Of a stretch of 64,000 bases of DNA, positions 43,713 to 59,001 are shown one piece after another. The translations under genes were made by a program, and so were the position numbers. The notes beneath the pieces were generated by a model. The model saw only the letters and a list, made by a program, of their open reading frames with translations, was not told the DNA's origin and did no database searches. The DNA lies in assembly GCA_003330885.1 (NCBI GenBank), contig CP030277.1:1116001-1180000 (forward strand), given 5' to 3'. The DNA comes from Rhodobiaceae bacterium (GTDB taxonomy: Bacteria; Pseudomonadota; Alphaproteobacteria; Parvibaculales; Parvibaculaceae). How positions within the stretch are numbered: position 1 is the first letter of the stretch; every line of letters starts with the position of its first letter.

Positions 43713-44714
43713 TTAGGGATTGGCTGCGATGAAATCCATGATGACTGTTGCAAGGGCATCTGGCTGGTCATGCTGAAGGAAATGACCACCCGTCTTGATG
43801 GTAGTGTGCGGCTGCCCTTTGGCACCCGGCACTTCTTCCTGGAAACGCTTCTCGCCACCCGCCGTCACTGGGTCCATGTCGCTGAAAGCTGTGAGGAATG
43901 GTTTTTCCCACTTGTGAAAGACCTCCCACGCCGCTTTGTTGGCCGGGATCGCCGGATTGTCCGGGATGATCGGCACCAGTGACGGGAACTTGCGGGCGCC
44001 TGCCATATACTCGTCACTCGGGAACGGCGCATCAAAGGCAGCCGCTTCTTCATCTGAAATGCCGACAGGCGAGCTATTCTTGACCATGTTTGAGACAACA
44101 AAATCAGTGGCTTCAGCAGCAAACTTCACCCAATGAAGAAAGCCCATCCCGTTCGTATTCTCAACGAAATGCGAGCCTAGATTTTCCGCTGTTGGCACCT
44201 CAATGCTCTCATAATAAGCATGCATCTTAGGCGCGAGTTCCAACGGAACGCCCTTTCCATCTGGCAGACCGGTATTACCGATGCAAACCCGTGCGAACCG
44301 GGCCTCATTCTCCGCAACAACACGCAGGCCAATCAGCCCACCCCAGTCCTGGCCAAAGAAGGTCACATTTTGCAAGTCGAGCTGAGTGACCAGCGAGGTG
44401 ACCCAGCCCACATGCCGGGCATAGGTATAATCGTCAACCCTGGTAGGTTTGTCAGAACGCCCAAAGCCAATGAGGTCCGGGCAGATCACCCGGTAGCCCT
44501 TCGCCACGAACAAGGGGATCATCTTCCGATAGAGATAGGACCAGACAGGCTGTCCGTGCATAGCTAGGATCAGAGGGCCATCTTTCGGCCCTTCGTCCAC
44601 ATTGTGCATCCGCACGACATGGCCTTCGCCGTCATCCACATCGCAATAATTGGGGGCGAATGGATATAGGGGTAGGTTTTCAAATCGCTCTTCGGGAGTG
44701 CGAAGGATTTCCAT
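43713..44714 (-). CDS. Haloalkane dehalogenase (HLD-I type)
   Basis: The 333-residue enzyme hydrolyses haloalkanes to alcohols, releasing halide. It closely follows the Xanthobacter DhlA layout: N-terminal RTPEERFENLPLYPFAPNY, HGQPVWSYLYRKMIP with the first halide-binding tryptophan region, nucleophile elbow GQDWGG (Asp123, halide-binding Trp124), acid in AFSDMDPVT, and catalytic His in KTGGHFLQHD. I chose ATG 44714 because AGGAG lies upstream and the protein then starts exactly as DhlA-type enzymes do. Earlier ATGs at 44744 and 44759 overlap the palindromic operator region. Physiological halogenated substrate is unknown. The gene is probably co-transcribed with the alpha/beta-hydrolase gene. 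Confidence 0.92.
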   Translation of the reverse strand: MEILRTPEERFENLPLYPFAPNYCDVDDGEGHVVRMHNVDEGPKDGPLILAMHGQPVWSYLYRKMIPLFVAKGYRVICPDLIGFGRSDKPTRVDDYTYARHVGWVTSLVTQLDLQNVTFFGQDWGGLIGLRVVAENEARFARVCIGNTGLPDGKGVPLELAPKMHAYYESIEVPTAENLGSHFVENTNGMGFLHWVKFAAEATDFVVSNMVKNSSPVGISDEEAAAFDAPFPSDEYMAGARKFPSLVPIIPDNPAIPANKAAWEVFHKWEKPFLTAFSDMDPVTAGGEKRFQEEVPGAKGQPHTTIKTGGHFLQHDQPDALATVIMDFIAANP

Positions 44715-44753
44715 GGACGTCTCCTGTTTTATGTTTGTGCTCATAGGATCTTC

Positions 44754-44778
44754 TGACATGCCACATGTCAATTGACAT
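44754..44778. promoter_or_regulatory. Nested palindromes between dehalogenase and Coq4-like genes
   Basis: Two overlapping perfect dyads share a half-site: TGACATG-CCA-CATGTCA (44754-44770) and ATGTCAATTGACAT (44765-44778). Both arms use the TGACAT/ATGTCA half-site. The array sits 40 bp upstream of the dehalogenase start and 63 bp before the divergent gene, the classical place for a TetR- or MarR-type repressor. No regulator gene is adjacent. Confidence 0.6.
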
Positions 44779-46020: not shown

Positions 46021-46587
46021 CTAATGAGCGCCTTCAGGCGCCTCGTCAGCAGCGTCACTGGCCGAAATCTCGGCGACCATGAGTCCTTTTGGCCCTTCGC
46101 CGAACCGCACACTGACTTCCTGGCCAGGAACAAGCTCCCGAACACCAAAGCGGCGCAAGGTCTCCATATGCACGAAAATGTCCGGAGTACCATCACCCCG
46201 CGTCACAAACCCGTACCCACGCGCACGGTTGAACCATTTGACAACGGCGACCTCAAAGTCGCCCACAGGCACTACCGCTGTTTCAGGATTCTTGTCAGCC
46301 GGTCGAATCGGGGCGGTTTGTACCGCCGTGCTGTCATCAATCTCAAGGATTTTGGAGGCCTGCATGCCCTTAGGGCGCTGAACAGCCTCGCAGGTGATGG
46401 TCGCCCCCTCCTCAAGGGTATCGCGACCAAACTGACGCAAACATGATGAATGCACCAAAACGTCCGCAGCACCATTGTCTGGCACCAAGAACCCATACCC
46501 CTTTACCGAATCAAACCACTTAACAACGCCGTGTATTTCTACAGTCGTTTCGGGTGATTCACCGGTGGATTCGAATTGTTCTTCCAT
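46021..46587 (-). CDS. Double cold-shock domain protein
   Basis: A 188-residue protein with two cold-shock domains joined by a linker of about 45 residues. The first has [20 protein letters not shown] and DVLVHSSCL; the second has [20 protein letters not shown] and [13 protein letters not shown]. The RNP1 (KGYGF, RGYGF) and RNP2 (VLVHS, IFVHM) motifs are present in both. Such tandem proteins bind single-stranded nucleic acid and act as RNA chaperones; this arrangement is common in Alphaproteobacteria. ATG 46587 follows GGGG; a GTG six bases earlier is an alternative. A TATAAT box about 110 bases upstream implies a long leader. Confidence 0.93.
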
Positions 46588-46917
46588 CCCCACCCCGAAA
46601 TCAGACCGGATACCGCACCTTTACTCGAACCACTTCTGCTCGCGACAAACCGGCCGTTCTTGATCTTCAGTGTGCCCCCCCCAAGAGGCAATGGTTAATT
46701 ATACAGATTTTTGCGTCTTGTTGAAACCCGCTAACGCAGGTTTTGCAATTGGCCGGTGCTTATGTCCTCACGCCTTGCAGGCTCAAGCATGAGCGATTAA
46801 GAAAAGGGATGAACTGTTCAAGGTAAGCACGTCAAAAGTGACGCCTCGTCAGCTCATTTCGAGGATCAGCGCGGCAATAACAAAAACACTGTGCGCTATT
46901 TGTCCGAAAGCAGGGGA
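46588..46917. other. Divergent intergenic region, cold-shock gene to mrp operon
   Basis: About 330 bp without a supported gene. It holds the cold-shock promoter (TATAAT at 46698-46703) and, at 46724-46743, a short dyad (AAACCCGC-TAAC-GCAGGTTT, one G-T pair). The remaining 170 bp before the mrp operon must carry its promoter, but I cannot point to convincing boxes. No tRNA or small RNA is evident. Confidence 0.6.
46698..46703 (-). promoter_or_regulatory. Consensus -10 box for the cold-shock gene
   Basis: TATAAT on the minus strand, 111 bases upstream of the cold-shock gene start. No good -35 is visible at the right distance (TTTCAA, three of six matches, 17-bp spacer). It would give a leader of roughly 100 bases, as cold-shock mRNAs often have. 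Confidence 0.4.
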
Positions 46918-47397
46918 ATGATTCACGCCGTCACTATGGGCCTTGGCCTTTTTGGGCTCTGGCTTCTTCTATCAGGGTTTCTAGACAACACACTTTTGTT
47001 GGGGCTTGGAGTTTTCTCATGCGTTGTCAGCGTCTACATCGCTGCACGGATGGAGGTCGTTGACCACGAGTCAGTCCCGCTGCAACTGAAGTTTGGTGTA
47101 TTTGGATACCTTTTTTGGCTTTCCGCAGAAATCGGGAAGGCAAACTGGGCGGTCACCAAGGTCATTCTCTCACCGCGTATGCGTCTCAATCAACGGATGA
47201 TTACCGTACAAGCAAACCAGACGACCGATGTAGGCCGCGTTACTTTCGCCAATTCCATCACGTTGACGCCGGGCACCATCACCGTTGAAACCGAACGCCA
47301 GTCATTCCTGGTCCATGCATTGACCAACGACGCCGCTGATCTGGAGGCACTGACTGATATGGGTAACCGTGTTTCGGCCGTGGAGAACCGCTCCTGA
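46918..47397 (+). CDS. mrpE: Mrp-type cation/proton antiporter, subunit E
   Basis: A 159-residue membrane protein of the MrpE/MnhE family. VTMGLGLFGLWLLLSGFLD opens with the family's first helices, LGLGVFSCVVSVYIAARM follows, and the cytoplasmic domain has VGRVTFANSITLTPGTITVE, the near-invariant TLTPGT element. The ATG at 46918 is directly preceded by AGGGGA, closer than ideal; a GTG at 46891 is possible. It is first in the antiporter operon, and its stop overlaps the mrpF start. Confidence 0.9.
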   Translation: MIHAVTMGLGLFGLWLLLSGFLDNTLLLGLGVFSCVVSVYIAARMEVVDHESVPLQLKFGVFGYLFWLSAEIGKANWAVTKVILSPRMRLNQRMITVQANQTTDVGRVTFANSITLTPGTITVETERQSFLVHALTNDAADLEALTDMGNRVSAVENRS

Positions 47398-47699
47398 TGT
47401 TTACTGCTGCAACCATGGCCGTTTCCATAACAATGGCGCTGATTTTGATCAGGGCGTTTCTAGGCCCAACCGTCTACGACCGTGTTTTGGCAGTGAACGC
47501 TTTTGGGACCGTGACCGTTTTGATTATTGGTCTCATTGGGTTCCTGACCGAACGACCTGAATTTCTCGATATTGCCCTCCTCTACGCTCTGATCAATTTC
47601 GTCGGAACGATCGCGATCCTCAAATTCTTCAGGTACCGCGCCCTTGGCCGTACCTCAGAGGTTCCCGCTGAGACAACCAAAGGAGGCGCCGCAGAGTGA
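47397..47699 (+). CDS. mrpF: Mrp-type antiporter, subunit F
   Basis: A 100-residue protein with three transmembrane helices. IRAFLGPTVYDRVLAVNAFGT is the MrpF hallmark (GPT..DR..A.N..GT), followed by FLDIALLYALINFVGTIAILKF. It overlaps the mrpE stop (TGATG) and the mrpG start, showing translational coupling. Confidence 0.93.
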   Translation: MFTAATMAVSITMALILIRAFLGPTVYDRVLAVNAFGTVTVLIIGLIGFLTERPEFLDIALLYALINFVGTIAILKFFRYRALGRTSEVPAETTKGGAAE

Positions 47700-48043
47700 T
47701 CGACCTTGTTCTCGACATTGCCAGCTGGATCTCCTTTGCACTCGGCGGCTTCTTTCTGATTGTTGGCGCCATCGGCATGATCCGCCTACCCGATTTTTGG
47801 TCACGGCTCCACGGTGCTGGTGTCATCGATACCGCCGGAGCAGAACTCATTCTGCTCGGCATGATGTTCCAAGCAGGCCTCACCCAGGTAACGATCAAGC
47901 TCATCCTGATTGGATTGTTCGTCTTTTTGACAAGCCCAACAGGCACCCATGCTGTTGCGAACGCGGCATTCGTAGCCGGCATCAGACCACTTGGAGAGAT
48001 CAAAGACGATGATACCAAAGAGCCGAAGGGGACAAAGTCATAG
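47696..48043 (+). CDS. mrpG: Mrp-type antiporter, subunit G
   Basis: A 115-residue protein with three transmembrane helices of the MrpG/MnhG family: FFLIVGAIGMIRLPDFWSRLHGAGVIDTAGA, where the RLPD..SRLHA-like motif is clear, then TSPTGTHAVANAAFVAGI. It starts at a GTG overlapping the mrpF stop. The acidic/lysine-rich C-terminus (KDDDTKEPKGTK) contains the likely ribosome site of the next gene, GAAGGGGA. Confidence 0.94.
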   Translation: MIDLVLDIASWISFALGGFFLIVGAIGMIRLPDFWSRLHGAGVIDTAGAELILLGMMFQAGLTQVTIKLILIGLFVFLTSPTGTHAVANAAFVAGIRPLGEIKDDDTKEPKGTKS

Positions 48044-48600
48044 AAGCCTATATTGACATTATCCTTTTCGGGTTTCTGATCATCACCGCAATCGCGATTA
48101 TGAGACTGCGAAACCTCTTCGCAGTTGTCATGCTTTCGGGCGTTTTCAGTTTGTTGTCAGCTGGCCTGTTTGTTGCCATGGATGCGGTCGACGTCGCCTT
48201 TACGGAAGCAGCCGTTGGCGCTGGGATCTCTACTGTTCTCATGCTGGGGACGTTGGCGCTCACCCACCAGCACGAGAAACCTGCGCAGCATTCAAGAGTG
48301 CTTCCTCTTCTTGTTGTCTTTGTGACCGGCGCTGCTCTTCTTTATGGCACTGCAGACCTTCCGCCATTTGGTTCGGCAGACACCCCCGTTCAGCAACATG
48401 TGGCGCCCGAATATATTGAGCGCACACCGGATGAGATCGGCGTCCCGAATATTGTGACAGCGGTCCTCGCATCCTACCGAGGCTATGACACGCTGGGGGA
48501 AGTCATAGTGATTTTCACCGCAGGCATTGCCGTGATTGTGCTTCTGCATGGTTCCAGTCGGCCCAAACGACGCAAAGAAGACGAAGAGGCAGAGAGCTAA
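48040..48600 (+). CDS. MbhD/MrpA-C-terminal-like antiporter subunit (DUF4040), probable ATA start
   Basis: The conserved core matches the DUF4040/MbhD family, which corresponds to the C-terminal part of MrpA: MRLRNLFAVVMLSGVFSLLS and DVAFTEAAVGAGISTVLMLG. The family's first helix is also encoded in frame upstream (EAYIDIILFGFLIITAIAI), from 48040, and the frame has no ATG, GTG or TTG before ATG 48100. AAGGGG sits eight bases ahead of an ATA codon at 48040, which overlaps the mrpG stop as ATAG in place of ATGA. Initiation at ATA giving 186 residues is thus likely; otherwise a 166-residue form lacks helix 1. Confidence 0.85.
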   Translation: MEAYIDIILFGFLIITAIAIMRLRNLFAVVMLSGVFSLLSAGLFVAMDAVDVAFTEAAVGAGISTVLMLGTLALTHQHEKPAQHSRVLPLLVVFVTGAALLYGTADLPPFGSADTPVQQHVAPEYIERTPDEIGVPNIVTAVLASYRGYDTLGEVIVIFTAGIAVIVLLHGSSRPKRRKEDEEAES

Positions 48601-49043
48601 TGGACCACCATTTCATTTTGCGGGTTGTTGCAAAAATGCTGATGCCTCCCATCATGCTTTACGCACTGTATGTGCAATTTCATGGTGATTTTGGCCCGGG
48701 CGGTGGGTTCCAGGCAGGTGTGATCTTTGCTGTTGCCTTCATCCTCTACGGTCTGGTCTTTGGATTGGACAGTCTGCGCCGCGTCGCGCCGCCTGCAATT
48801 GTGCGGGCGGGTATTGCTCTCGGTGCCCTCCTGTATGCAGGAACAGGCGTTTACAGCTTTTTCAAGGGCAAGAATTATCTCGATTATTCCGCGTTAGCTG
48901 ATGCCGACAACCCAGTTGCGGGACAACATCTTGGCATCCTCCTCGTCGAAGCCGGCGTTGGATTGACGGTCGCGAGCGTCATGATCGCTGTTTTTGTCGC
49001 CTTCGCAGCCCGCGCGCCTGAGATCAAGGATACAGACTGGTGA
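48600..49043 (+). CDS. mrpB: Mrp-type antiporter, subunit B
   Basis: A 147-residue MnhB-domain protein with four transmembrane helices. The family motif is HGDFGPGGGFQAGVIFAVAFILYGLVFG, and LGILLVEAGVGLTVASVMIAVF is the last helix. The ATG overlaps the preceding TAA (TAATG), so it is translated as part of the same coupled set. Confidence 0.94.
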   Translation: MDHHFILRVVAKMLMPPIMLYALYVQFHGDFGPGGGFQAGVIFAVAFILYGLVFGLDSLRRVAPPAIVRAGIALGALLYAGTGVYSFFKGKNYLDYSALADADNPVAGQHLGILLVEAGVGLTVASVMIAVFVAFAARAPEIKDTDW

Positions 49044-49462
49044 TGTGGGATGAAATGACAGTCGAGTTTTTCGTCAGCCACTACAATTACTGGATGACGG
49101 TCATCTTGATGATGATCGGACTCTATGTCGTCGTGAGCCGGGGCAACCTGGTGAAAAAAATCGTCGGGCTGAACCTGTTTCAAACATCCGTGTTCATGCT
49201 CTACATCTCCATGGCGAAGATCCTCGGCGGCACCGCACCCATCCTCACCGACAATCCCAACGAAGTGTATTCCAACCCTCTGCCGCACGTTCTCATTCTC
49301 ACCGCCATTGTAGTGGGTGTCGCAACAACTGCTCTGGGCCTCGCACTCATCATTCGCATCCGCGAGAGCTTTGACACAATCGAGGAAGACGAAATCTTCG
49401 ACATTGAACAACAGATGGCGAATACGTCACATCCTCATGCGGAGACTCCTAACAAATGTTGA
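49040..49462 (+). CDS. mrpC: Mrp-type antiporter, subunit C (NuoK-like)
   Basis: A 140-residue homologue of complex I subunit NuoK with three transmembrane helices. MMIGLYVVVSRGNLVKKIVGLNLFQTSVF carries the conserved glycines, and PLPHVLILTAIVVGVATTALGLALIIRI follows. The C-terminus is an acidic cytoplasmic tail. A GTG at 49040 and ATG at 49043 both overlap the mrpB stop. The stop overlaps the next gene's start by seven bases. Confidence 0.94.
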   Translation: MMWDEMTVEFFVSHYNYWMTVILMMIGLYVVVSRGNLVKKIVGLNLFQTSVFMLYISMAKILGGTAPILTDNPNEVYSNPLPHVLILTAIVVGVATTALGLALIIRIRESFDTIEEDEIFDIEQQMANTSHPHAETPNKC

Positions 49463-51009
49463 GTAGCCTCTCTGCGCATTTGCCCGTTTTGCAGGTTGTC
49501 GTTCTGCTGATCGCCGCCCCTCTTTGTGCGCTATTTGGCAATCGCCACCTTGCATGGACAATCGCCTTCATCGCTGCCTCTGCGGCGTTCGTCATCTCAA
49601 CGCTTCTTCTAGGTTCGGTTCTGGATGGCTCGGTCATCTCCTATCACCTCGGCGGTTGGGCGCCCCCATGGGGCATTGAGTATCGGATCGATGCAGCCAA
49701 CGCATTTATCCTCTTCATCGTGTCGCTGATCGGTGTCCTGGTTTTGCCCTATGCACGCCAGAGTATTGAGCGTGAGTTTGAAGCATCTACTCATTCCTAT
49801 TTTTACACTTGTTATCTGCTGTGCCTGACAGGTCTTCTCGGCGTTGCGGCGACAGGCGACGCGTTCAATGTGTTTGTCTTCTTGGAGATTTCTTCGCTAG
49901 CCACCTACGCGTTGGTTGCCTTCGGTGCGAAACGGGACAAGCGGGCTCTAACGGCGGCCTACAATTACCTGATCATGGGCACGATTGGTGCAACCTTCTT
50001 CGTGATCGGCATTGGGTTTCTCTACATGGTCACGGGAACGCTGAACATGGCTGACCTTGCGGTCCGACTCGCCGAAGTCGGCGACACCCGCGTCACCCGC
50101 GTCGCCTTTGTCTTTATCCTGGTGGGGATGGGTTTAAAGCTCGCCATGTTCCCCCTGCATCTCTGGCTGCCTAACGCCTACAGCTATGCACCATCTGCGA
50201 TCACCGCATTCCTCGCGGCTACCGCTACGAAGGTGGCACTTTATGTATTGCTGCGTTTCACGTTCACCGTTTTCCAGTTCGACTTCCCCGTCCAGGAACT
50301 GACGTTTGAATATGTGGTGATGCCGCTCGCCGTCGTGGCTATGTTTGCAGCATCAATTGCCGCCGTGTTCCAACAGGACGTAAAACGCCTTCTGGCATAT
50401 TCAAGCGTAGCTCAAGTGGGATACATGCTGCTTGGGGTCGCACTGCTGACAGAAGCAGGCCTTACCGCAGGCATCATCCATCTGTTCAACCACGCTGTGA
50501 CCAAAGGCGCGCTCTTCTTAGCAGTTGGGTGTTTTGTCTATCAGGTCGGGTCCAGCCGCCTGGGCGACCTCAAAGGCATCGGCAAGACCATGCCATGGAC
50601 GACAGCCGCCTTAACCGCTGGGGGATTGAGCCTAATTGGCGTGCCACTCACTGTCGGCTTTATCTCCAAATGGTATTTGATCCAGGCGTCGCTTGAGACT
50701 GGCTCCCTGCTCATTGCAGGTCTGATCGTAGCCTCGTCGCTCATTGCCGTGATCTATGTCTGGCGGATTGTTGAAGTTGCCTATCTTGAACCTGCACCTG
50801 AAGGTCGTGAGGCCAAAGAGGCACCGCTCTCCATGCTCTTGCCCACCTACGCTTTGGTTGTCGCAAGCCTCTATTTCGGGATCAATAGCGAGCTGACAAG
50901 CAGCGCAGCCTCCCAAGCAGCGAATGCCCTTTATTCTGCAACAGACTTTGCTGCGCCACCCATGCTCTTAAGCCCAGCTGACCTGCGGAGCGAAGGAGCC
51001 AGCCAATGA
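49456..51009 (+). CDS. mrpD: Mrp antiporter subunit D-like, first of three
   Basis: A 517-residue proton-conducting subunit related to NuoL/M/N with about 14 transmembrane helices. The key glutamate is in NVFVFLEISSLATYALVAFG and the key lysine in VGMGLKLAMFPLHLWLPNAY. AITAFLAATATKVALYVLLR and FQQDVKRLLAYSSVAQVGYM are also typical. With two more such subunits below, this operon encodes three separate antiporter modules. It is the closest of them to classical MrpD. Confidence 0.93.
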   Translation: MLSSLSAHLPVLQVVVLLIAAPLCALFGNRHLAWTIAFIAASAAFVISTLLLGSVLDGSVISYHLGGWAPPWGIEYRIDAANAFILFIVSLIGVLVLPYARQSIEREFEASTHSYFYTCYLLCLTGLLGVAATGDAFNVFVFLEISSLATYALVAFGAKRDKRALTAAYNYLIMGTIGATFFVIGIGFLYMVTGTLNMADLAVRLAEVGDTRVTRVAFVFILVGMGLKLAMFPLHLWLPNAYSYAPSAITAFLAATATKVALYVLLRFTFTVFQFDFPVQELTFEYVVMPLAVVAMFAASIAAVFQQDVKRLLAYSSVAQVGYMLLGVALLTEAGLTAGIIHLFNHAVTKGALFLAVGCFVYQVGSSRLGDLKGIGKTMPWTTAALTAGGLSLIGVPLTVGFISKWYLIQASLETGSLLIAGLIVASSLIAVIYVWRIVEVAYLEPAPEGREAKEAPLSMLLPTYALVVASLYFGINSELTSSAASQAANALYSATDFAAPPMLLSPADLRSEGASQ

Positions 51010-52514
51010 GCCCTGAACTCGCAATTACCCTAACCATTCTGCTGCCCGCCGCTGCAACTCTTTTGCTTGCATTGCTGGACAAACAGCCGAACCTGCGTGA
51101 AGCGGTGAGCCTGCTCACGGCCGGTGCGCTTTTCGTCATCGTTCTAGGATTACTGCAAACCGTACTCGATGGCACTCAACCGACGGCCCACTGGTTTGAC
51201 GTTTTGCCCGGCCTGTCGCTTGCCTTTGAGATTGAACCGCTGGGCATGCTCTTTGGCGTTGTCGCGGCGGGTCTCTGGATTGTAACCGCGCTCTATTCCA
51301 TCGGCTATATGCGCGGCAACGATGAGACAAACCAGACACGCTTCTATATCTGCTTCGCGATCGCTATTTCCGCGGCCATGGGTATCGCCTTTGCGGCGAA
51401 CATGTTCACCCTCTTCATCTTCTACGAAGTGCTGACACTCTCGACCTATCCGCTGGTGGCACACAAAGAAACCGACGTCGCCCGAAAGGGTGCTCGGACT
51501 TATCTTGGTATCTTGATTACCACATCAATCGGCTTCCAACTTGTTGCCATTGTCTGGACCTGGGTCGTCGCGGGAACCCTCGACTTTGAGCAGGGCGGCA
51601 TCCTGGCTGACAAGATCGATCCGACACTCTTGCCTTTCCTGTTGGCGCTCTATGCGTTCGGCATAGGCAAGGCGGCGCTCATGCCGTTCCACAGGTGGTT
51701 GCCCGCCGCCATGGTGGCACCGACACCGGTAAGCGCGCTGCTCCATGCAGTTGCTGTTGTGAAGGCCGGCGTGTTTACGATGCTCAAAGTAGGTGTCTAC
51801 ATTTTCGGGATCGACCTGCTGGCGACCACAGGCGCAGCAGACTGGCTCATGTGGCTTGCTGCTTTCTCAATCCTCGCGGCCTCGATTGTCGCGATGACCA
51901 AAGACAATCTGAAAGCGCGGCTCGCTTATTCTACTATCAGTCAGCTGTCCTACATCACCCTCGGCATGGCCCTCGCCACTTCATTGGGCGTGATGGGCGG
52001 CGCCATGCACATTGCGATGCATGCCATGGGCAAGATCACCCTCTTTATGTGCGCAGGCGCAATCTATGTCGCCACCCACAAGACAGAGATAAGCGACATG
52101 GATGGCCTCGGGCGGGTGATGCCGTTCACCTATGGCGCATTCTTTATCGGTGCGCTCTCCATCATCGGGCTGCCGCCTCTCGGCGGCGCTTGGTCGAAAT
52201 GGTATCTGATGCTCGGCGCGGCAGACGCTGGCCAGATCATCATGATGGGCGTCTTTATGGCGAGCTCGCTCCTCAACATCGCCTATCTCCTGCCTGTTGT
52301 CGCACGCGGCTTCTTTATGGGAAGTCAGATCCAAGGCGCTTACTCCCTCGGAGCTACTGCTGCCCCATCAAAAGGCATTAAGGAAGCACCGCTCTGGTGT
52401 GTGGTTCCCCCCTGCCTCACGGCCATTGGTTGTCTGCTGCTCTTCTTCTATGCAGGAGATATTTACACGCTGATTGAGCCGGTCGCCTTCCCTGAAGGGA
52501 CAGCCCAGCCATGA
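51006..52514 (+). CDS. Mrp/NuoM-like antiporter subunit, second of three
   Basis: A 502-residue complex I-type antiporter subunit. The glutamate is in FTLFIFYEVLTLSTYPLVAH and the lysine in YAFGIGKAALMPFHRWLPAA. PTPVSALLHAVAVVKAGVF carries the second conserved lysine in the HAVAVVKAG helix, and IVAMTKDNLKARLAYSTISQ is the histidine/lysine region seen in NuoM. It is closer to NuoM/NuoL than the first copy. It takes the place of the N-terminal NuoL-like domain of MrpA, which in this operon is not fused to MbhD/MrpB. It overlaps both neighbours by four bases. Confidence 0.92.
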   Translation: MSPELAITLTILLPAAATLLLALLDKQPNLREAVSLLTAGALFVIVLGLLQTVLDGTQPTAHWFDVLPGLSLAFEIEPLGMLFGVVAAGLWIVTALYSIGYMRGNDETNQTRFYICFAIAISAAMGIAFAANMFTLFIFYEVLTLSTYPLVAHKETDVARKGARTYLGILITTSIGFQLVAIVWTWVVAGTLDFEQGGILADKIDPTLLPFLLALYAFGIGKAALMPFHRWLPAAMVAPTPVSALLHAVAVVKAGVFTMLKVGVYIFGIDLLATTGAADWLMWLAAFSILAASIVAMTKDNLKARLAYSTISQLSYITLGMALATSLGVMGGAMHIAMHAMGKITLFMCAGAIYVATHKTEISDMDGLGRVMPFTYGAFFIGALSIIGLPPLGGAWSKWYLMLGAADAGQIIMMGVFMASSLLNIAYLLPVVARGFFMGSQIQGAYSLGATAAPSKGIKEAPLWCVVPPCLTAIGCLLLFFYAGDIYTLIEPVAFPEGTAQP

Positions 52515-52876
52515 GCGACGAGATGAAAACACCCGAAACAAACTCGTCGAAGCTCCCGTGGCTCGGCCGCAAATTGCTTTGGCTCGACAATATGAAGAAT
52601 GTAGACCGCATCGTGTATGCGCTCTTTGTGATCTGCGGTGGCCTGGTTGCAGCGGACTTCATGTATCACAAGCACAGCTATCTCGACATTGAAGACATTC
52701 CAGGGTTCTACGCAGCCTTTGGCTTCTTCATGTGTGCAGCACTTATTGTCTGCGCACGTGCCATGCGCGTGATCCTGAAGCGCGACGAAGACTATTATTC
52801 GCCCAAGGACGTAGTGTCTGAAGGCTACCCTGAAGACCAGCTGAGCCGGGAGACAATCCCAGGAGATGGGCAATGA
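52511..52876 (+). CDS. Small membrane protein within the antiporter operon, unknown
   Basis: A 121-residue protein. A hydrophilic N-terminus (about 40 residues) precedes two transmembrane helices (IVYALFVICGGLVAADFMYH and FYAAFGFFMCAALIVCARAM), which are linked by the short acidic loop KHSYLDIEDIPG. A charged cytoplasmic tail has DEDYYSPKDVVSEGYPE. It is not one of the standard Mrp subunits A-G. It overlaps the second antiporter subunit and the third by four bases each, so it must be made with them and is probably a structural subunit between the two. Confidence 0.8.
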   Translation: MSDEMKTPETNSSKLPWLGRKLLWLDNMKNVDRIVYALFVICGGLVAADFMYHKHSYLDIEDIPGFYAAFGFFMCAALIVCARAMRVILKRDEDYYSPKDVVSEGYPEDQLSRETIPGDGQ

Positions 52877-54567
52877 CTGATCTTTTCCCGCCTTTCCTTC
52901 TGTTTGTTGCAGGTGCAGCGCTCTTGCCCTTTATTCCGAATGGGCATCCCAGAGCACTCGCCGCTATCATCGTGCCGATCATCAGCGCCTACTTAATCTG
53001 GATGATGCCAGAAGGCATGTACGGTCAGTTCACCCTGGTCGGCCAGGAAATCACACTGCTGAGAGTAGATAAGCTCTCCACCATCTTCGGATTTGTCTTC
53101 TCTCTCGCCGCGTTCCTTGCGCTCATCTACGCTTGGCATGTGCGCGACACGATCCAGCAGACAATGTCGCTGCTCTATGCAGGTGCGGCCATCGGCGCTG
53201 TCTTTGCCGGCGACCTCGTTTCACTTTTCATCTTTTGGGAAGGCACCGCTATTGCTTCCGTCTTTCTCATCTGGGCGAGACGCACCGAAGGCGCCTATTG
53301 GACGGGAATGCGCTACCTCATCGTTCAGGTAGGGTCCGGCGTTATCCTATTGGCGGGTATAGTACTTCAGTATAGCGAAACGGGATCTATGGCGTTTGAA
53401 GCTATGACGCTAGGAAGCCCCGCGACGTGGGCCATCTTCATCGCCTTCGGCGTCAAATGCGCCTTCCCCTTGCTGCACAATTGGATGCCGGACGCTTACC
53501 CTGCTGCGACTGTAACGGGAACAGTGATCCTGTCAGCCTTCACCACGAAGCTCGCTGTTTACGCCCTCGCACGTGGCTTTGCAGGCACGGAAATTCTCAT
53601 CTATATCGGCGCCACCATGGCTATCTTCCCGGTTTTTTATGCGGTTATCGAGAACGATCTCCGACGGGTGTTGACCTATAGCTTGAACCAACAACTGGGA
53701 TTTATGGTGGTTGGAATTGGTGTTGGGACCGAACTGGCCCTGAATGGGACAAGTGCGCACGCCTTTGCCAGCGTTCTCTACCAGGCGCTGCTCTTTATGA
53801 GCATTGGCGCAGTACTTTTCAGAACGGGAACGGCCAAGGCCTCCGACCTTGGGGGGCTCTATAAGACCATGCCGCTCACAATGGTCTTTTGTGTGATTGG
53901 CGCGGCTTCCATTTCTTCCTTCCCACTTTTTTCAGGCTTTGTGAGTAAATCGCTCATCCTGTCTGGCTCTGTGCACGAAGGTCATTACATCGTTTGGGGT
54001 ATCTTGCTTTTTGCGTCGGCAGGGGCGTTCATCCACTCGGGCATCAAAGTCCCCTTTTTCGCCTTCTTCGCGCAAGACAGCGGCTTGCGTCCAAAAGAAG
54101 CGCCCTGGAACATGCTCCTGGCGATGGGCATCACGGCCTTCCTCTGCATCGCAGTGGGAGTCTACCCAGATCCGCTCTATGCGCTTCTACCCTATGATGT
54201 TGACTATGTGCCCTACACAACGACCCATGTGGTGACGCAGCTTCAGCTTCTCTTCTTCTCCACACTGGCTTTTGCTGTGCTCATGAGAACCGGGATTTAT
54301 CCACTGGCGCTGAAATCGGTAAACCTCGATTTTGATTGGACCTATAGAAAACTCGGTCCTGCGCTCATCAGGGGGATCCGCTCGCTCATCAGGGCTGTTT
54401 GGGGTGCCCTCATCGGCGCCGGCCTTCGGAGCGTGAACTTCGGCATAGCCGCCTTGGGACGCGCTCATGGCCCGGACGGCCTTCTTGCTCGCGCCTGGCC
54501 AACCGGATCTATGGTGCTTTGGATTGCTGTGCTCCTTGGCGCAACGCTTCTACTAAACTATATGTGA
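52873..54567 (+). CDS. NuoL/Mrp-like antiporter subunit, third of three
   Basis: A 564-residue antiporter-type membrane protein. The functional glutamate is in VSLFIFWEGTAIASVFLIWA, and the lysine is in FIAFGVKCAFPLLHNWMPDAYP. YAVIENDLRRVLTYSLNQQLGF matches the histidine/lysine region, and the frame ends with an extra C-terminal helix (GSMVLWIAVLLGATLLLNYM). It is longer than MrpD and diverges from the other two copies. The gene ends the operon; 41 bp separate it from coxG on the same strand. Confidence 0.9.
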   Translation: MTDLFPPFLLFVAGAALLPFIPNGHPRALAAIIVPIISAYLIWMMPEGMYGQFTLVGQEITLLRVDKLSTIFGFVFSLAAFLALIYAWHVRDTIQQTMSLLYAGAAIGAVFAGDLVSLFIFWEGTAIASVFLIWARRTEGAYWTGMRYLIVQVGSGVILLAGIVLQYSETGSMAFEAMTLGSPATWAIFIAFGVKCAFPLLHNWMPDAYPAATVTGTVILSAFTTKLAVYALARGFAGTEILIYIGATMAIFPVFYAVIENDLRRVLTYSLNQQLGFMVVGIGVGTELALNGTSAHAFASVLYQALLFMSIGAVLFRTGTAKASDLGGLYKTMPLTMVFCVIGAASISSFPLFSGFVSKSLILSGSVHEGHYIVWGILLFASAGAFIHSGIKVPFFAFFAQDSGLRPKEAPWNMLLAMGITAFLCIAVGVYPDPLYALLPYDVDYVPYTTTHVVTQLQLLFFSTLAFAVLMRTGIYPLALKSVNLDFDWTYRKLGPALIRGIRSLIRAVWGALIGAGLRSVNFGIAALGRAHGPDGLLARAWPTGSMVLWIAVLLGATLLLNYM

Positions 54568-54608: not shown

Positions 54609-55193
54609 ATGGAAATGACTGGCGAATTCCGTATTCCCGCTCCTCAAGCTGATGTTTGGGCAGCCCTCAATGATCCTGAAGTGCTTCAGCAATCCATTCC
54701 TGGGGCCGAAAGTGTTGAAAAAACCAGCGACACGGGATTTGCTGCCGTTGCGAAAGCGAAAGTCGGACCTGTTAGTGCCAAATTCAAAGGCAATGTAACC
54801 CTCTCCGATATAGATGCCCCCAACGGGTACAAAATCAGCGGCGAAGGCTCCGGCGGCGCTGCTGGCTTTGCGAAAGGATCCGCTGTCGTGAAACTCACCC
54901 CAGACGGTGACGGCACTATTCTGAGCTACGAAGTTCAGGCCACAGTAGGCGGCAAGCTTGCGCAGGTCGGACAGAGGTTTATCGACTCCACAGCCAAAAA
55001 AATGGCGGATGAATTCTTCACATCGTTTGCAGCAATTACAGGAGGCACGACAGAAGAAGAAGTCGACGTCATTGCCCCGACCCATGTGCCGCTGGTGCCT
55101 GATGAAGAGGCAGGGCTCGGCCTCGCTCCTTGGATGTGGGGCACACTTGTGATCGCGGGCGCATTGATTGCGATCTACGTCGTTACCATCTAA
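54609..55193 (+). CDS. coxG: CoxG family protein with C-terminal membrane anchor
   Basis: A 194-residue SRPBCC-fold protein of the CoxG family: MEMTGEFRIPAPQADVWAAL, EVLQQSIPGAESVEK, SAKFKGNVTLSDIDAPNGYK, then QVGQRFIDSTAKKMADEFF. After this about 150-residue domain comes a single C-terminal transmembrane helix (GTLVIAGALIAIYVV). CoxG proteins help attach CO dehydrogenase to the membrane and hand its electrons to quinone, which the C-terminal anchor here would fit. A gap of about 140 bp with two tandem hairpins separates it from coxS. Confidence 0.9.
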   Translation: MEMTGEFRIPAPQADVWAALNDPEVLQQSIPGAESVEKTSDTGFAAVAKAKVGPVSAKFKGNVTLSDIDAPNGYKISGEGSGGAAGFAKGSAVVKLTPDGDGTILSYEVQATVGGKLAQVGQRFIDSTAKKMADEFFTSFAAITGGTTEEEVDVIAPTHVPLVPDEEAGLGLAPWMWGTLVIAGALIAIYVVTI

Positions 55194-55269
55194 AGCCCAG
55201 CACGCGTTTAGCGTCGAGCAGCTTGACGGCGACCGACCAAGCGCAGACACTTATTACAAAGAAACCCAA

Positions 55270-55310
55270 AGGACGCCTGCGAACGTCCTGACGGCATAAG
55301 AAAAGCCGTC
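55270..55310 (+). promoter_or_regulatory. Tandem hairpins in the coxG-coxS gap
   Basis: AGGACG-CCTGCGAA-CGTCCT (55270-55289) is followed immediately by GACGGC-ATAAGAAAA-GCCGTC (55290-55310). They end 24 bases before the coxS start. Neither is followed by a T-run, so they look like a structured leader or mRNA-stability element rather than a terminator. Confidence 0.4.
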
Positions 55311-55334
55311 GCCTAACTTCGGGAGGAACCGCCC

Positions 55335-55802
55335 ATGGCTCTCGTCTCCATGACAGTCAACGGCAAACCAGTATCAGGTGAAGTCGAAGGCCGCACGCTG
55401 TTGGTCCAATTCATACGTGAGAACCTCGCTCTCACCGGTACTCATGTGGGCTGCGATACAAGCCAATGCGGTGCCTGTGTCATCCATATGGATGACAAAG
55501 CTGTGAAAGCGTGCACCATGCTCGCTCTTCAAGCGGAAGGCAGCACCATCACAACCATTGAAGGCTTGGCAAAGGGCGATGATCTTCATCCGGTCCAAAA
55601 AGCCTTCAAAGAAAATCATGGGCTGCAATGTGGTTTCTGTACGCCGGGCATGATCATGACTGCTGTTGATATGATCGACCGGATTCCAAACCTGGATGAA
55701 GAAACGGTCCGCGCCGAGTTGGAAGGCAATATCTGTCGCTGTACCGGCTATCAGAACATTGTGAAATCCATTCTGGACGCTGCTGAAACCACACCCGCCT
55801 AA
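55335..55802 (+). CDS. coxS: CO dehydrogenase-family small subunit (2Fe-2S)
   Basis: A 155-residue iron-sulfur subunit of the xanthine oxidase family that takes electrons from the molybdenum centre. The plant-type ferredoxin cluster ligands are in [20 protein letters not shown] with a fourth cysteine in VKACTMLAL. The second 2Fe-2S domain is in [17 protein letters not shown] and [24 protein letters not shown] precedes the ATG. It forms the first gene of the catalytic trio. Confidence 0.95.
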
Positions 55803-55833
55803 TTCAGCACGGGGATTCCGGGAGGAGGAATTC

Positions 55834-58194
55834 ATGAGCTCATCAGGAATAGGACAGGCTGTCCGCCGTAAGGAAGACAAGCGGTTCATCACAGGTGCCG
55901 GGCGATATACCGATGACCTGAACCGCCCAGGCCAGACCCATGCCTATTTTCTGCGCAGCCCTCACGCCCATGCCAAGATCAATGGCATTGATCTTACAGA
56001 AGCTGTTGCTGCACCGGGTGTCGTCAGCATTTTCACCGGCTCTGACGTCGCTGCCGATGGCCTTGGCGGATTGATCTGCGGCTGGACCGTCCATTCAAAA
56101 GATGGCTCTGAAATGAAAGCCGGTGCCCACCCGATCTTGGCTGAAGACACTGTGCGCTATGTCGGCGATCACGTCGCCATGGTTGTGGCCGAAACCTATG
56201 CCCAGGCAAAATCAGCCGCTGAACTGATTAGTGTCGACTATGACGTCCTTGATGCCGCAGCTGACGTTGGTAGGGCGCAGGATGGGGCCGCGCCGCAAGT
56301 CCATGCGGAAGCACCGGGCAATACCTGCTTCGATTGGGAGCTTGGAAACAAGCCAGAAACGCTAGCGGCCCTTAAGAACGCCGCTCATGTCATCAAGCTG
56401 GATCTCACCAACAATCGCCTGATCCCCAATGCCATGGAACCCCGCGCTGCCATTGCGGATTATGACAGCGGGACAGACGAATACACATTGTGGACCACCA
56501 GCCAGAACCCCCATGTTGCGAGGCTTGTCCTATCCGCCTTTGTCGGCGTGGCACCAGAACACAAACTGCGGGTTATTGCGCCGGACGTTGGCGGCGGCTT
56601 TGGTTCCAAGATTTTCATCTACGCAGAAGAGACAGCCTGCACCTGGGCCTCCGCGAAAATCAAACGTCCGATCAAATGGACGGCAGAGCGCAGCGAGTCC
56701 TTTCTCTCAGACGCACATGGCCGCGATCATGTGAGCCATGCAGAACTGGCTGTGGCGGAAGATGGAACCTTTCTGGGCCTGCATGTTCAGACCAAAGCCA
56801 ATCTCGGCGCCTATCTATCGACTTTCGCGTCGTCCGTTCCGACCTATCTCTACGGCACCCTGCTTTCGGGCCAATATGCCCTTCCCGCAGTCTATGTTGA
56901 AGTCGACGGTGTGTTTACCCATACCGCCCCTGTAGATGCCTATCGCGGCGCAGGACGCCCTGAAGCGACCTATCTAATCGAGCGGATCGTCGAGACGGCT
57001 GCACGTGAACTCGGGTTCGATCCAGCAGAACTCCGTCGCAAGAATTTCATCCGTACATTCCCGCATCAGACGCCAGTCATTATGAATTATGACATTGGTG
57101 ACTACGACGCCTCCCTCGATAAAGCACTCGCACTGGTCGACTATGACGGGTTTCCAGCCCGCAAAGCTGAGACCGAGAGCCGCGGCAAGAAGCGGGGCAT
57201 CGGTTTCTCTACCTATATTGAGGCCTGTGGCCTAGCTCCTTCTGCTGCCGTGGGCTCCCTCGGCGCAGGTGTTGGCATGTGGGAGAGTGCAGAGGTTCAA
57301 GTTGCACCCACCGGCAAGATTGAGATTTTTACCGGATCACACAGCCACGGCCAAGGCCATGAGACAACCTTCGCACAGCTTGTCTGCGAACGGATTGGCG
57401 TGCCCATTGAGGATGTTGAGATCATCCACGGGGATACGGGCCGCGTGCAGTTTGGCATGGGTACTTATGGCTCCCGCTCTGGCTCTGTCGGCATGAGCGC
57501 GCTCGCAAATGCACTCGATAAAATCGAAGCCAAGGCGAAGAAAATCGCCGCTCACCTTATGGAAGCGGACGCAGGCGACATTGAGTTGAAAGACGGTGTC
57601 TTCACGGTCACTGGAACCGACAAGGAACTCGCCTGGGCAGAACTTGCGCTCGGCGCTTATACAGCCCACGGGTTCCCGACCTCTGAGATCGAGCCAGGGT
57701 TGAAGGAGAATGCCTTTTACGACCCGCTCAACTTCACCTTCCCGTCGGGCTGTCATATCTGCGAAGTGGAAATAGATCCAGACACCGGCGTGACACAGAT
57801 CGCTAATTTTGTCGCTGTGGATGATTTCGGCGTGATTGTGAACCCCATGATCGTGGAAGGTCAGGTCCAGGGAGGTATCGCCCAGGGGATCGGACAGGCA
57901 CTCTTCGAGGCGGCGCATTATGATGAGACCGGTCAGCTGATCACCGGCTCCTTCATGGACTATTGCATGCCCCGCGCCGACGACCTGCCCGACTTCAATC
58001 TAGACTTCACCAAAACAGACTGCCCGTCAAACCCCATGGGCATGAAGGGCTGTGGTGAGGCAGGCGCAATCGCCTCGCCCCCCGCCGTGATCAACGCCAT
58101 TACAGACGCTCTCGGCGTCCGTGACATCAAAATGCCAGCAACCCCTGCACGTGTATGGGCGGCGCTCGCCGCACCATCACCCAGCTCTGATTGA
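55834..58194 (+). CDS. coxL: CO dehydrogenase-family large subunit, form II type
   Basis: The 786-residue molybdopterin subunit of the xanthine oxidase family. It begins [22 protein letters not shown], typical of CoxL. Molybdopterin-contact regions include [16 protein letters not shown] and [17 protein letters not shown]. The active-site loop is AYRGAGR at residues 369-375: this is the form II signature, not the AYxCSFR loop of genuine aerobic CO dehydrogenase (form I). The near-C-terminal glutamate of GCGEAGAI is the catalytic Glu of the family. CO oxidation cannot be assumed; an aldehyde or heterocycle hydroxylase is as likely. GGGAGGAGG is the ribosome site. Confidence 0.93.
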
Positions 58195-58203
58195 GGAACG
58201 CCC

Positions 58204-59001
58204 ATGTACCAGTTCGACTATCATCGCGCACAAACAGTCGCTGAAGCAGCAGAACTTCTCGCCGCCAATGACGAAAACACATTGCTTGCCGGTGGACAAA
58301 CCCTCATCCCGACGCTGAAGCAACGCCTGGCCATGCCGGCAACGCTGGTCGATATCGGCAACATCGCCGATCTCAATTTCATCAAAGCCGAGGGAAACGC
58401 GATCACCATAGGCGCGGCGACGAAGCACGCGGATGTCGCTTCCTCACCTGACGTGGCAAAGCACCTTCCTGCCCTCGCCCATCTTGCAGCACATATCGGT
58501 GACCCAGCTGTGCGCAACCGCGGCACCATTGGCGGGTCCCTCGCAAACAACGATCCTGCAGCTGATTATCCGGCCGCAGCGCTGGGGCTGGACGCAAAGA
58601 TTCACACCAACAAACGTCTGATTGACGCTGATCCCTATTTCACAGGCATGTTTGAAACAGCCTTGGAAGAAGACGAGATCATCACGGAAGTCACCTTCCC
58701 TCATCCGGATAAAGCGGCCTACGTCAAATTCCCGAACCCTGCGTCACGTTACGCCATGGTCGGTGTTTTTGTCGCCAAAACCGCCATCGACATTCGTGTT
58801 GCTGTCACAGGCGCAGGTGCCAATGGTGTCTTCCGCGTGAAAGAAATGGAAGACGCGCTTGGTAGTAACTGGTCACCCGACGCCGTCACAGGAATCAAGG
58901 TTCCTGAAGATGACCTTCTGTCCGACCTTCATGGTGCTGCGGACTATCGCAGCCACCTCATCTCTGTGATGGCAGGACGCGCCGTTGCAGCGACCATGTG
59001 A
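58204..59001 (+). CDS. coxM: CO dehydrogenase-family medium subunit (FAD)
   Basis: A 265-residue FAD subunit that carries electrons from the iron-sulfur clusters to the acceptor. FAD motifs are in LLAGGQTLIPTLKQRLAMP (the AGGQ(S/T) pattern) and GDPAVRNRGTIGGSLANNDPAADYPAA (TIGGS). GAGGAA precedes the ATG, 9 bp after coxL. The set S-L-M is complete, in an order in which M follows L; the Oligotropha cox cluster has M-S-L. Confidence 0.94.
   Translation: MYQFDYHRAQTVAEAAELLAANDENTLLAGGQTLIPTLKQRLAMPATLVDIGNIADLNFIKAEGNAITIGAATKHADVASSPDVAKHLPALAHLAAHIGDPAVRNRGTIGGSLANNDPAADYPAAALGLDAKIHTNKRLIDADPYFTGMFETALEEDEIITEVTFPHPDKAAYVKFPNPASRYAMVGVFVAKTAIDIRVAVTGAGANGVFRVKEMEDALGSNWSPDAVTGIKVPEDDLLSDLHGAADYRSHLISVMAGRAVAATM

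Follow-up and report, generated by a model that had tools for sequence, protein, structure and literature searches.

Here we analysed a window of 64,000 nucleotides (positions 1,116,001 to 1,180,000 of contig CP030277.1, assembly GCA_003330885.1, from a Rhodobiaceae bacterium), and in particular an Mrp-like operon of ten plus-strand genes within it, spanning window positions 46891-54567. The order of these genes is E-F-G-(MbhD+MbhE)-B-C-Da-Db-S-Dc, where the single gene that joins the MbhD and MbhE domains is called DE, where Da, Db and Dc encode antiporter modules, and where S encodes a small membrane protein (Table 1). Neighbouring genes overlap or nearly touch, the widest gap being the 56 bases between G and DE. 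An earlier note on this DNA had counted nine genes, and while its nine named parts lie where it placed them, it passed over the 121-amino-acid open reading frame S; its fourth gene, called MbhD, does contain that domain but holds MbhE as well.

Table 1. Features of the operon, with positions in the window and the evidence for each assignment
Feature	Position	Strand	Size or extent	Evidence
mrpE-like subunit	46891..47397	+	168 aa from GTG at 46891, which may apply instead of the alternative ATG at 46918	PF01899 97.6 bits, cut-off 27
mrpF-like subunit	47397..47699	+	100 aa	PF04066
mrpG-like subunit	47696..48043	+	115 aa	PF03334; TIGR01300 over cut-off
DE, MbhD + MbhE domains	48100..48600	+	166 aa	PF13244 + PF20501; NF009159 over cut-off
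mrpB-like subunit	48600..49043	+	147 aa	PF04039; NF009162 188.8 bits, cut-off 120
mrpC/NuoK-like subunit	49040..49462	+	140 aa	PF00420; NF005621 over cut-off
Da, antiporter module 1, MrpD/NuoN/MbhH-like	49456..51009	+	517 aa	PF00361; tree; residues
Db, antiporter module 2, MrpA-N/NuoL-like	51006..52514	+	502 aa	PF00361 + PF00662; tree; residues
S, small membrane protein	52511..52876	+	121 aa	Open reading frame; conservation across loci
Dc, antiporter module 3	52873..54567	+	564 aa	NF009310 717.9 bits, cut-off 564
Lateral helix (HL) of Dc	54331..54468	+	Residues 487-532, ahead of last membrane helix 546-563	AlphaFold2 model; NuoL match; length comparison

The gene content is that of an Mrp (CPA3) antiporter of group 3. 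Nine of the ten genes have Pfam and NCBIfam matches to Mrp/Mnh or complex I families, including NCBIfam models for each of Da, Db and Dc, the last of these above its cut-off. Homologues of E, F, G, B, C, D and the C-terminal part of MrpA, to which DE is equivalent, thus stand in one operon, with several mrpD-like genes and no mrpA; the best solved chain for C is MbsG. Neither peripheral redox subunits of the membrane-bound hydrogenase (MBH) or MBS type nor the NuoB/C/D/H/I core of complex I were found among the ten genes. The window's genome, a single contig of 3.86 Mb, yielded no MrpA match with TIGR00940 at 1e-100 and, in family searches, no second Mrp, the mrpE-like gene being its sole MNHE match. 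It encodes six Proton_antipo_M proteins, namely Da, Db and Dc together with three near 875-879 kb which cluster with NuoL, NuoM and NuoN and represent a separate nuoL/M/N. Three PF00999 exchangers are also present, so the genome has other candidates for Na+/H+ antiport besides the Mrp.

All three antiporter modules group among MrpA, MrpD, Nuo and Mbh relatives or, in the case of Dc, as a clade of their own. Our main tree was unrooted and comprised 59 proteins, with ultrafast bootstrap and Shimodaira-Hasegawa-like approximate likelihood ratio test support; it was derived from a 76-row quick tree by leaving out 17 rows, five of them cyanobacterial or Hyf sequences and the other 12 the Da, Db and Dc of four loci (dropped for speed). 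Each of Da, Db and Dc is recovered as a clade of its own (100/96, 100/100 and 100/100, in that order), which also takes in the two haloarchaeal counterparts. Da falls with MrpD, NuoM, NuoN, MbhH and MbsH (97/90), its tie to MbhH/MbsH being weak (80/49), and Db with MrpA, NuoL and Ech-type L (95/83), while the clade of Dc is deep and separate.

The residues of the ion path are likewise in place: E144, K228, K259 and K405 in Da; E141, K222, H247, V252 and K398 in Db, where a His aligns with H254 of E. coli NuoL; and E123, K195, K226 and K359 in Dc. The Glu of transmembrane helix 5 (TM5; E144/E141/E123 in Da/Db/Dc) aligns with E144/E144/E133 of E. coli NuoL/M/N, and the TM7 Lys (K228/K222/K195) with K229/K234/K217, so each of the three modules in the window has both residues that mark an Mrp antiporter module. 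Their conservation across relatives is high, as all four Da residues are kept in 70/70 bacterial Da, the TM7 Lys in 70/70 Da, 76/76 Db and 82 of 83 Mrp-type Dc, and the TM5 Glu, TM8 Lys and TM12 Lys of Dc in 83/83. The TM5 Glu and TM12 Lys recur in all three modules (Db has Arg at TM12 once in 76), and TM8 carries Lys in Da and Dc and Val in 76/76 Db, like the NuoL and MrpA rows.

How many modules are assembled together may be reflected in the lateral helix HL. In the AlphaFold2 model of Dc (predicted local distance difference test score, pLDDT, 85.5; predicted template modelling score, pTM, 0.82) a helix of 46 residues precedes the last membrane helix. Along its full length the model can be superposed on E. 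coli NuoL (Z 44.1, 543 residues aligned, root-mean-square deviation 8.4; against the NuoL chain in 7p7e the deviation is 2.7 over 482 residues, tail excluded), whereas B. pseudofirmus MrpD, which ties by score (Z 43.5), aligns with residues 1-443 only. We then compared the length of the HL stretch, defined as the residues from a conserved D-x-x-Y/W to the Gly preceding the last helix and measured by alignment and in best-match frames. In MrpA, from two-module complexes, it is 20 residues in 17 of 19 proteins and 21 once, one row (L153) being incomplete. In NuoL, from three-module complexes, it is 48 in 20 of 21 distinct proteins (22 rows, the window's own NuoL entering twice, as L157 and G000) and 43 in E. 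coli. In Dc of the four-module "green" complex I of rhizobia, known as cited in PMC9040806 and PMC7415380, it is 72 in 5/5. Mrp-type Dc have 53 in 76 of the 82 measured (83 were given), 54 in four, and 45 and 59 once each. With 53 residues, the window's Dc falls in the three-module class, and a single row of three modules with Dc at its tip is therefore likely, as far as sequence can tell; Db, judged from its length, probably has no lateral helix.

The arrangement is widespread. A search of named genomes with a Dc alignment returned at least 580 stretches encoding a relative, and 80 loci were kept and examined. By title they are mostly alphaproteobacterial, with others from Beta- and Gammaproteobacteria and from metagenome-assembled genomes (MAGs) labelled Gemmatimonadota and Planctomycetaceae, and the order is kept across all of these. 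The full series E-F-G-DE-B-C-Da-Db-S-Dc was present in 52/80 loci, and seven more had the same without a separate B; such recurrence indicates that the arrangement is not a matter of chance. Eight DE frames in the set measure 303-341 amino acids, which agrees with the DE-B fusion model NF009161. Most of the remaining 21 loci are cut at their start by the end of a contig or contain disrupted or additional reading frames, and in one of them (L092), for which some 7 kb of upstream sequence is available, only Db-S-Dc is present. NF009310, the family of Dc, exceeded its cut-off in 15/299 genomes of the phylum and in 0/14 control genomes; S lies between Db and Dc in all 15 loci, some of these S matches being weak (E up to 6.5e-4), and three of the 15 are of the green complex I type. 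Some genomes carry further genes of this kind: in one member of the phylum (G081) Dc genes occur on contigs 27, 51 and 95 (L038, L044 and L045), two of the three in fuller operons, and contig 23 holds a run of four antiporter-like genes; in a MAG labelled Gemmatimonadota (L115) extra antiporter-like genes flank the operon on both sides.

The small protein S is a near-constant companion of Dc. Its gene shares 4 bases with Db at one end and 4 with Dc at the other, and the protein has two predicted helices (28-55 and 66-89) and a C-terminal R-x-E-x-Y-Y motif. It is present in 79/80 loci, the 80th starting at Dc. Among 385 genomes from the same class as the window (Alphaproteobacteria, going by its nearest named relatives), the S profile matched 96, the Dc profile (E at most 1e-120) 95 and both 94, leaving one genome with Dc but without S. 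In 95 of 98 matches S adjoins Dc, and of the three exceptions one falls at the edge of a contig, while the other two come from genomes whose Dc is below threshold. Compared with four relatives, S differs mainly at third codon positions and so behaves as a coding gene under selection. It matched no Pfam or NCBIfam family at 0.01; among 25 S members the best Pfam hit was DUF2975 (E 0.0011, three of 25 members reaching 0.1), no NCBIfam hit was stronger than E 0.004, seen in one member, and nothing better than E 0.095 was found among solved chains. A Foldseek search matched no chain, but the model used was of modest quality (mean pLDDT 69.6, pTM 0.37) and the result does not imply a new fold. No mention of S was found in the parts of the literature covered.

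Taken together, we consider it probable that the operon encodes a cation/proton antiporter of the Mrp group 3 type whose three antiporter modules form a single row, with predicted electrogenic Na+(K+)/H+ antiport. The observations behind this are the gene content and its conservation, the residues and families, the length of the HL stretch, the linkage of S with Dc and the separability of Db-S-Dc described below. We infer the one-row assembly, the order of modules, direction, ion, stoichiometry and the place of S, and take the working from the Mrp model that Steiner and Sazanov proposed (PMC7419157). E, F, G, B, DE and C would make up the path for the cation and couple it to Da, and charge changes would travel along the Glu/Lys axis from Da through Db to Dc at the far tip, where the lateral helix of Dc would clamp all three modules and S would accompany Db and Dc as a cassette-specific small subunit. 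Proton influx through the three modules would flip Glu/Lys pairs along the row, and Na+ or K+ would be driven out at the C/DE/F end. Given one more module, the H+/cation ratio may be higher than in two-module Mrp.

Several observations weigh against this reading. The first concerns the count by HL length: insertions similar to those discussed here are described in the NuoL of two other Manganitrophaceae complexes (PMC9040806), and two haloarchaeal Dc have about 82 residues between their last two membrane stretches (a crude hydropathy count, as they have no HL motif), against 83-84 for green Dc by the same count, with most Mrp-type Dc shorter than the haloarchaeal ones. HL length is thus no strict count of modules. 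The second is that the 76-row quick tree, with its long-branched cyanobacterial and Hyf rows, puts Db outside MrpA/NuoL. The third is that Dc has Asn in place of the TM7 Lys in L040, L001 and L003 and in both haloarchaeal and both green complex I Dc compared, as might be expected if Dc were a structural clamp or length adaptor and protons were moved by Da and Db only. We regard this as unlikely, since the TM7 Lys stands in the window's Dc and in all but one of the Mrp-type Dc, and the other three residues in every one of them.

The cation end adds two further points. F carries Asn34 where A. flavithermus MrpF has D35, a residue proposed for the Na+ path, and the window's C (the one C compared here) has T49 and F52 for A. 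flavithermus MrpC H37 and H40. The Asn is found in 64/64 F proteins of this operon type; among comparators, one haloarchaeal protein has N and three classical ones D, and D occupies the position in all five matched Mbh, Mbs and Mrp structures. The A. flavithermus cation-path residues (MrpF D35, MrpC H37/H40) are accordingly absent, but they belong to the model of one member and do not define the family, and MBH itself also differs at one of the MrpC positions (PMC7419157). On the other hand, F keeps D28-R29 and DE keeps R127, D130 and E134. E36 of DE aligns with MbhD E69 (alignments with 6cfw_D/E and 6u8y_E) and is an MBH-type Glu, the corresponding residue of B. pseudofirmus MrpA coming four residues later. 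Given the differing MrpF and MrpC residues, the choice of ion or the cation path may, to judge from these alignments, differ from the A. flavithermus model.

A final point against one row of three is that Db-S-Dc occurs apart from any core. In genome G654 (MAG UBA2383) E-F-G-DE-B-C-Da is found on one contig (L175), ending after Da, and Db-S-Dc on another (L092), so that the break in the operon falls precisely at the boundary of Da and Db; genome G081 has an additional lone Db-S-Dc (L038) besides its two fuller operons, next to genes that are flagellar and chemotactic by eye. One operon could hence encode two units, namely the core with Da as a one-module Mrp (or, with Db, a two-module one) and a separate Db-S-Dc or Dc-S, and it would fit this that the stand-alone core of P. 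furiosus has one module (PMC8415708) and that Dc forms its own clade. What makes it decidedly improbable is that Dc carries an HL stretch in the three-module range (53 residues, where MrpA has 20), the lone copies included (53 in L092, 51 in L038), that core and block share one order in 52 + 7 of 80 loci, and that green complex I has the same block in its nuo operon in place of NuoL.

As to the block in green complex I, plasmids of Sinorhizobium meliloti and Phyllobacterium have Db-S-Dc flanked by nuoK and nuoM and surrounded by other nuo genes, and three genomes (L031-L033) share the order nuoJ-nuoK-Db-S-Dc-nuoM-nuoN-nuoA-B-C-D-E-F. The S of both rhizobial plasmids is 27-28% identical to the window's S and has the same C-terminal R-x-E-D-Y-Y. 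We lean towards viewing Db-S-Dc as a portable two-module booster cassette with its own small subunit S, which would have joined a one-module Mrp core, raising it from one module to three, and complex I, where it would replace NuoL and raise the count from three to four, which can sit apart from a core, and whose HL length would be reset with the number of modules. For haloarchaea we also considered whether S is hidden as an extension of Db and rejected the idea, as the two long Db C-termini, by eye, have a charged loop and no R-x-E-x-Y-Y.

The use of Db-S-Dc in a redox complex by rhizobia raises the question of whether the operon could supply the membrane part for a redox enzyme with its peripheral arm at another site in the genome, for instance one linked to the CO-dehydrogenase-like cox genes just downstream. 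A coxG-like gene does occur within 1.5 kb downstream in 15/80 loci, including Parvibaculum, Nisaea and Sneathiella, but none was seen within that distance in the other 65, some of which are short (62/80 have at least 3 kb downstream). Furthermore, none of the ten genes is NuoB/C/D/H-like, a separate nuoL/M/N lies at another place in the genome, and the E-F-G-B cation module is kept, so we give this explanation hardly any credence. As for the neighbourhood itself, an aerobic CO-dehydrogenase-like cluster follows directly after the operon (54609-59001 and on), with coxS- and coxL-like genes by NCBIfam, below cut-off; further genes we take to be coxG-like and coxM-like, and the CoxL motif AYRGAGR would presumably make it form II. 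Upstream, 46021-46593 on the minus strand encodes a protein with two cold-shock domains, a relative of which is found in 15/80 loci, and 43713-44771, also minus, an alpha/beta hydrolase which presumably resembles haloalkane dehalogenase.

The direction of transport must also be considered. Antiporters should in principle be reversible, and the complex might work mainly in reverse, with a Na+ gradient pushing protons out. No Rnf/Nqr match (PF02508) was found in the genome, in a search that did not extend to other Na+ pumps, and the genome thus appears to be without a primary Na+ pump of that kind. We consider reverse working very unlikely, and rejected the variant driven by a primary Na+ pump, as far as Rnf/Nqr pumps are concerned, on the lack of a PF02508 match.

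Returning to the three-module antiporter, its plan is already known in outline from the definition of group 3, the P. furiosus core, a Nitrospira locus, published gene orders and the NCBIfam models. Group 3 comprises Mrp without mrpA and with one or several mrpD (PMC8415708). The stand-alone Mrp of P. furiosus, mrpEFGBB'CD, belongs to it; its MrpB is an MbhD-MbhE fusion, and its first seven parts have the same order as ours, again without mrpA (PMC8415708). It makes do with a single antiporter module and lacks an energy-input module, while the window's operon adds Db-S-Dc. In the group 3 Mrp of 'Ca. Nitrospira alkalitolerans' mrpD is followed by two NuoM-/NuoL-similar genes, apparently on the same three-module plan, which its authors read as extra mrpA/mrpD-like genes; the published description, in the excerpts covered, has no S gene, HL length or link to green complex I (PMC7784846). 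Ito et al. 2017 likewise give group 3 orders with two mrpD, one of them with D-D-A (PMC5703873). Haloarchaeal plasmids (NZ_CP101460, NZ_CP084320) have E-F-G-DE-B-C-Da-Db-Dc with each module in the same clade, but with no S gene annotated between Db and Dc, a longer Db (613 and 657 amino acids), Asn for the TM7 Lys of Dc and Thr or Ser for the TM8 Lys of Da. Rhizobial green complex I shares Db-S-Dc in order and clades, S included, and differs in that the cassette lies between nuoK and nuoM, replacing NuoL, with an HL stretch of 72 instead of 53 and Asn at TM7 of Dc. Classical Mrp of groups 1 and 2 (MrpA + MrpD) share all subunit types with the window's operon, their MrpA-N and MrpD being the counterparts of two of its three modules; unlike them, the operon has unfused MbhD/E, a third module, S, an MBH-type Glu in DE and the MrpF Asn. 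Finally, the MBS of P. furiosus (MbsH, MbsH') combines an Mrp-type core with an extra antiporter module and has HL on the distal one (PMC7684303), but consists of two modules and a redox arm. In the parts of the literature covered we found no study of a three-module Mrp, the Nitrospira locus in PMC7784846 being the nearest, and excerpts of PMC8879329, PMC12361115 and PMC7599335 contained nothing on this operon type. Within that scope S, the HL comparison on this operon, the MrpF Asn, the place of S within a shared cassette and the parted core and cassette appear to be new.

The comparison also bears on the larger claims of the earlier note. Its three distinct antiporter modules in one conserved operon, with their TM5 Glu and TM7 Lys, are borne out by the clades, the alignments with E. 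coli NuoL/M/N, the recurrent gene order and the three-module-class HL. Its view of MrpA as split holds in so far as MbhD/E have their own gene and Db is MrpA/NuoL-like in the main tree (though not in the quick tree), but HL is on Dc. As the MrpA parts are unfused in P. furiosus MBH and Mrp (PMC8415708) and in haloarchaea, this split may be the old state. Its suggestion that the complex may move more ions per cycle is plausible. We do not adopt its other suggestion, that of a precursor-like form: the core order is that of P. furiosus mrpEFGBB'CD and the Glu is of the MBH type, yet the tie of Da to MbhH/MbsH is weak and the tree unrooted.

The operon bears on the number of ions moved per cycle by Mrp and complex I, and on whether every antiporter-like subunit contributes one. 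A widespread three-module antiporter, a one-module relative in P. furiosus and a four-module complex I with the same cassette offer a comparison by which the ion count can be tested. If our reading of the cassette is true, these systems would form a natural series for testing ions per cycle against the number of modules.

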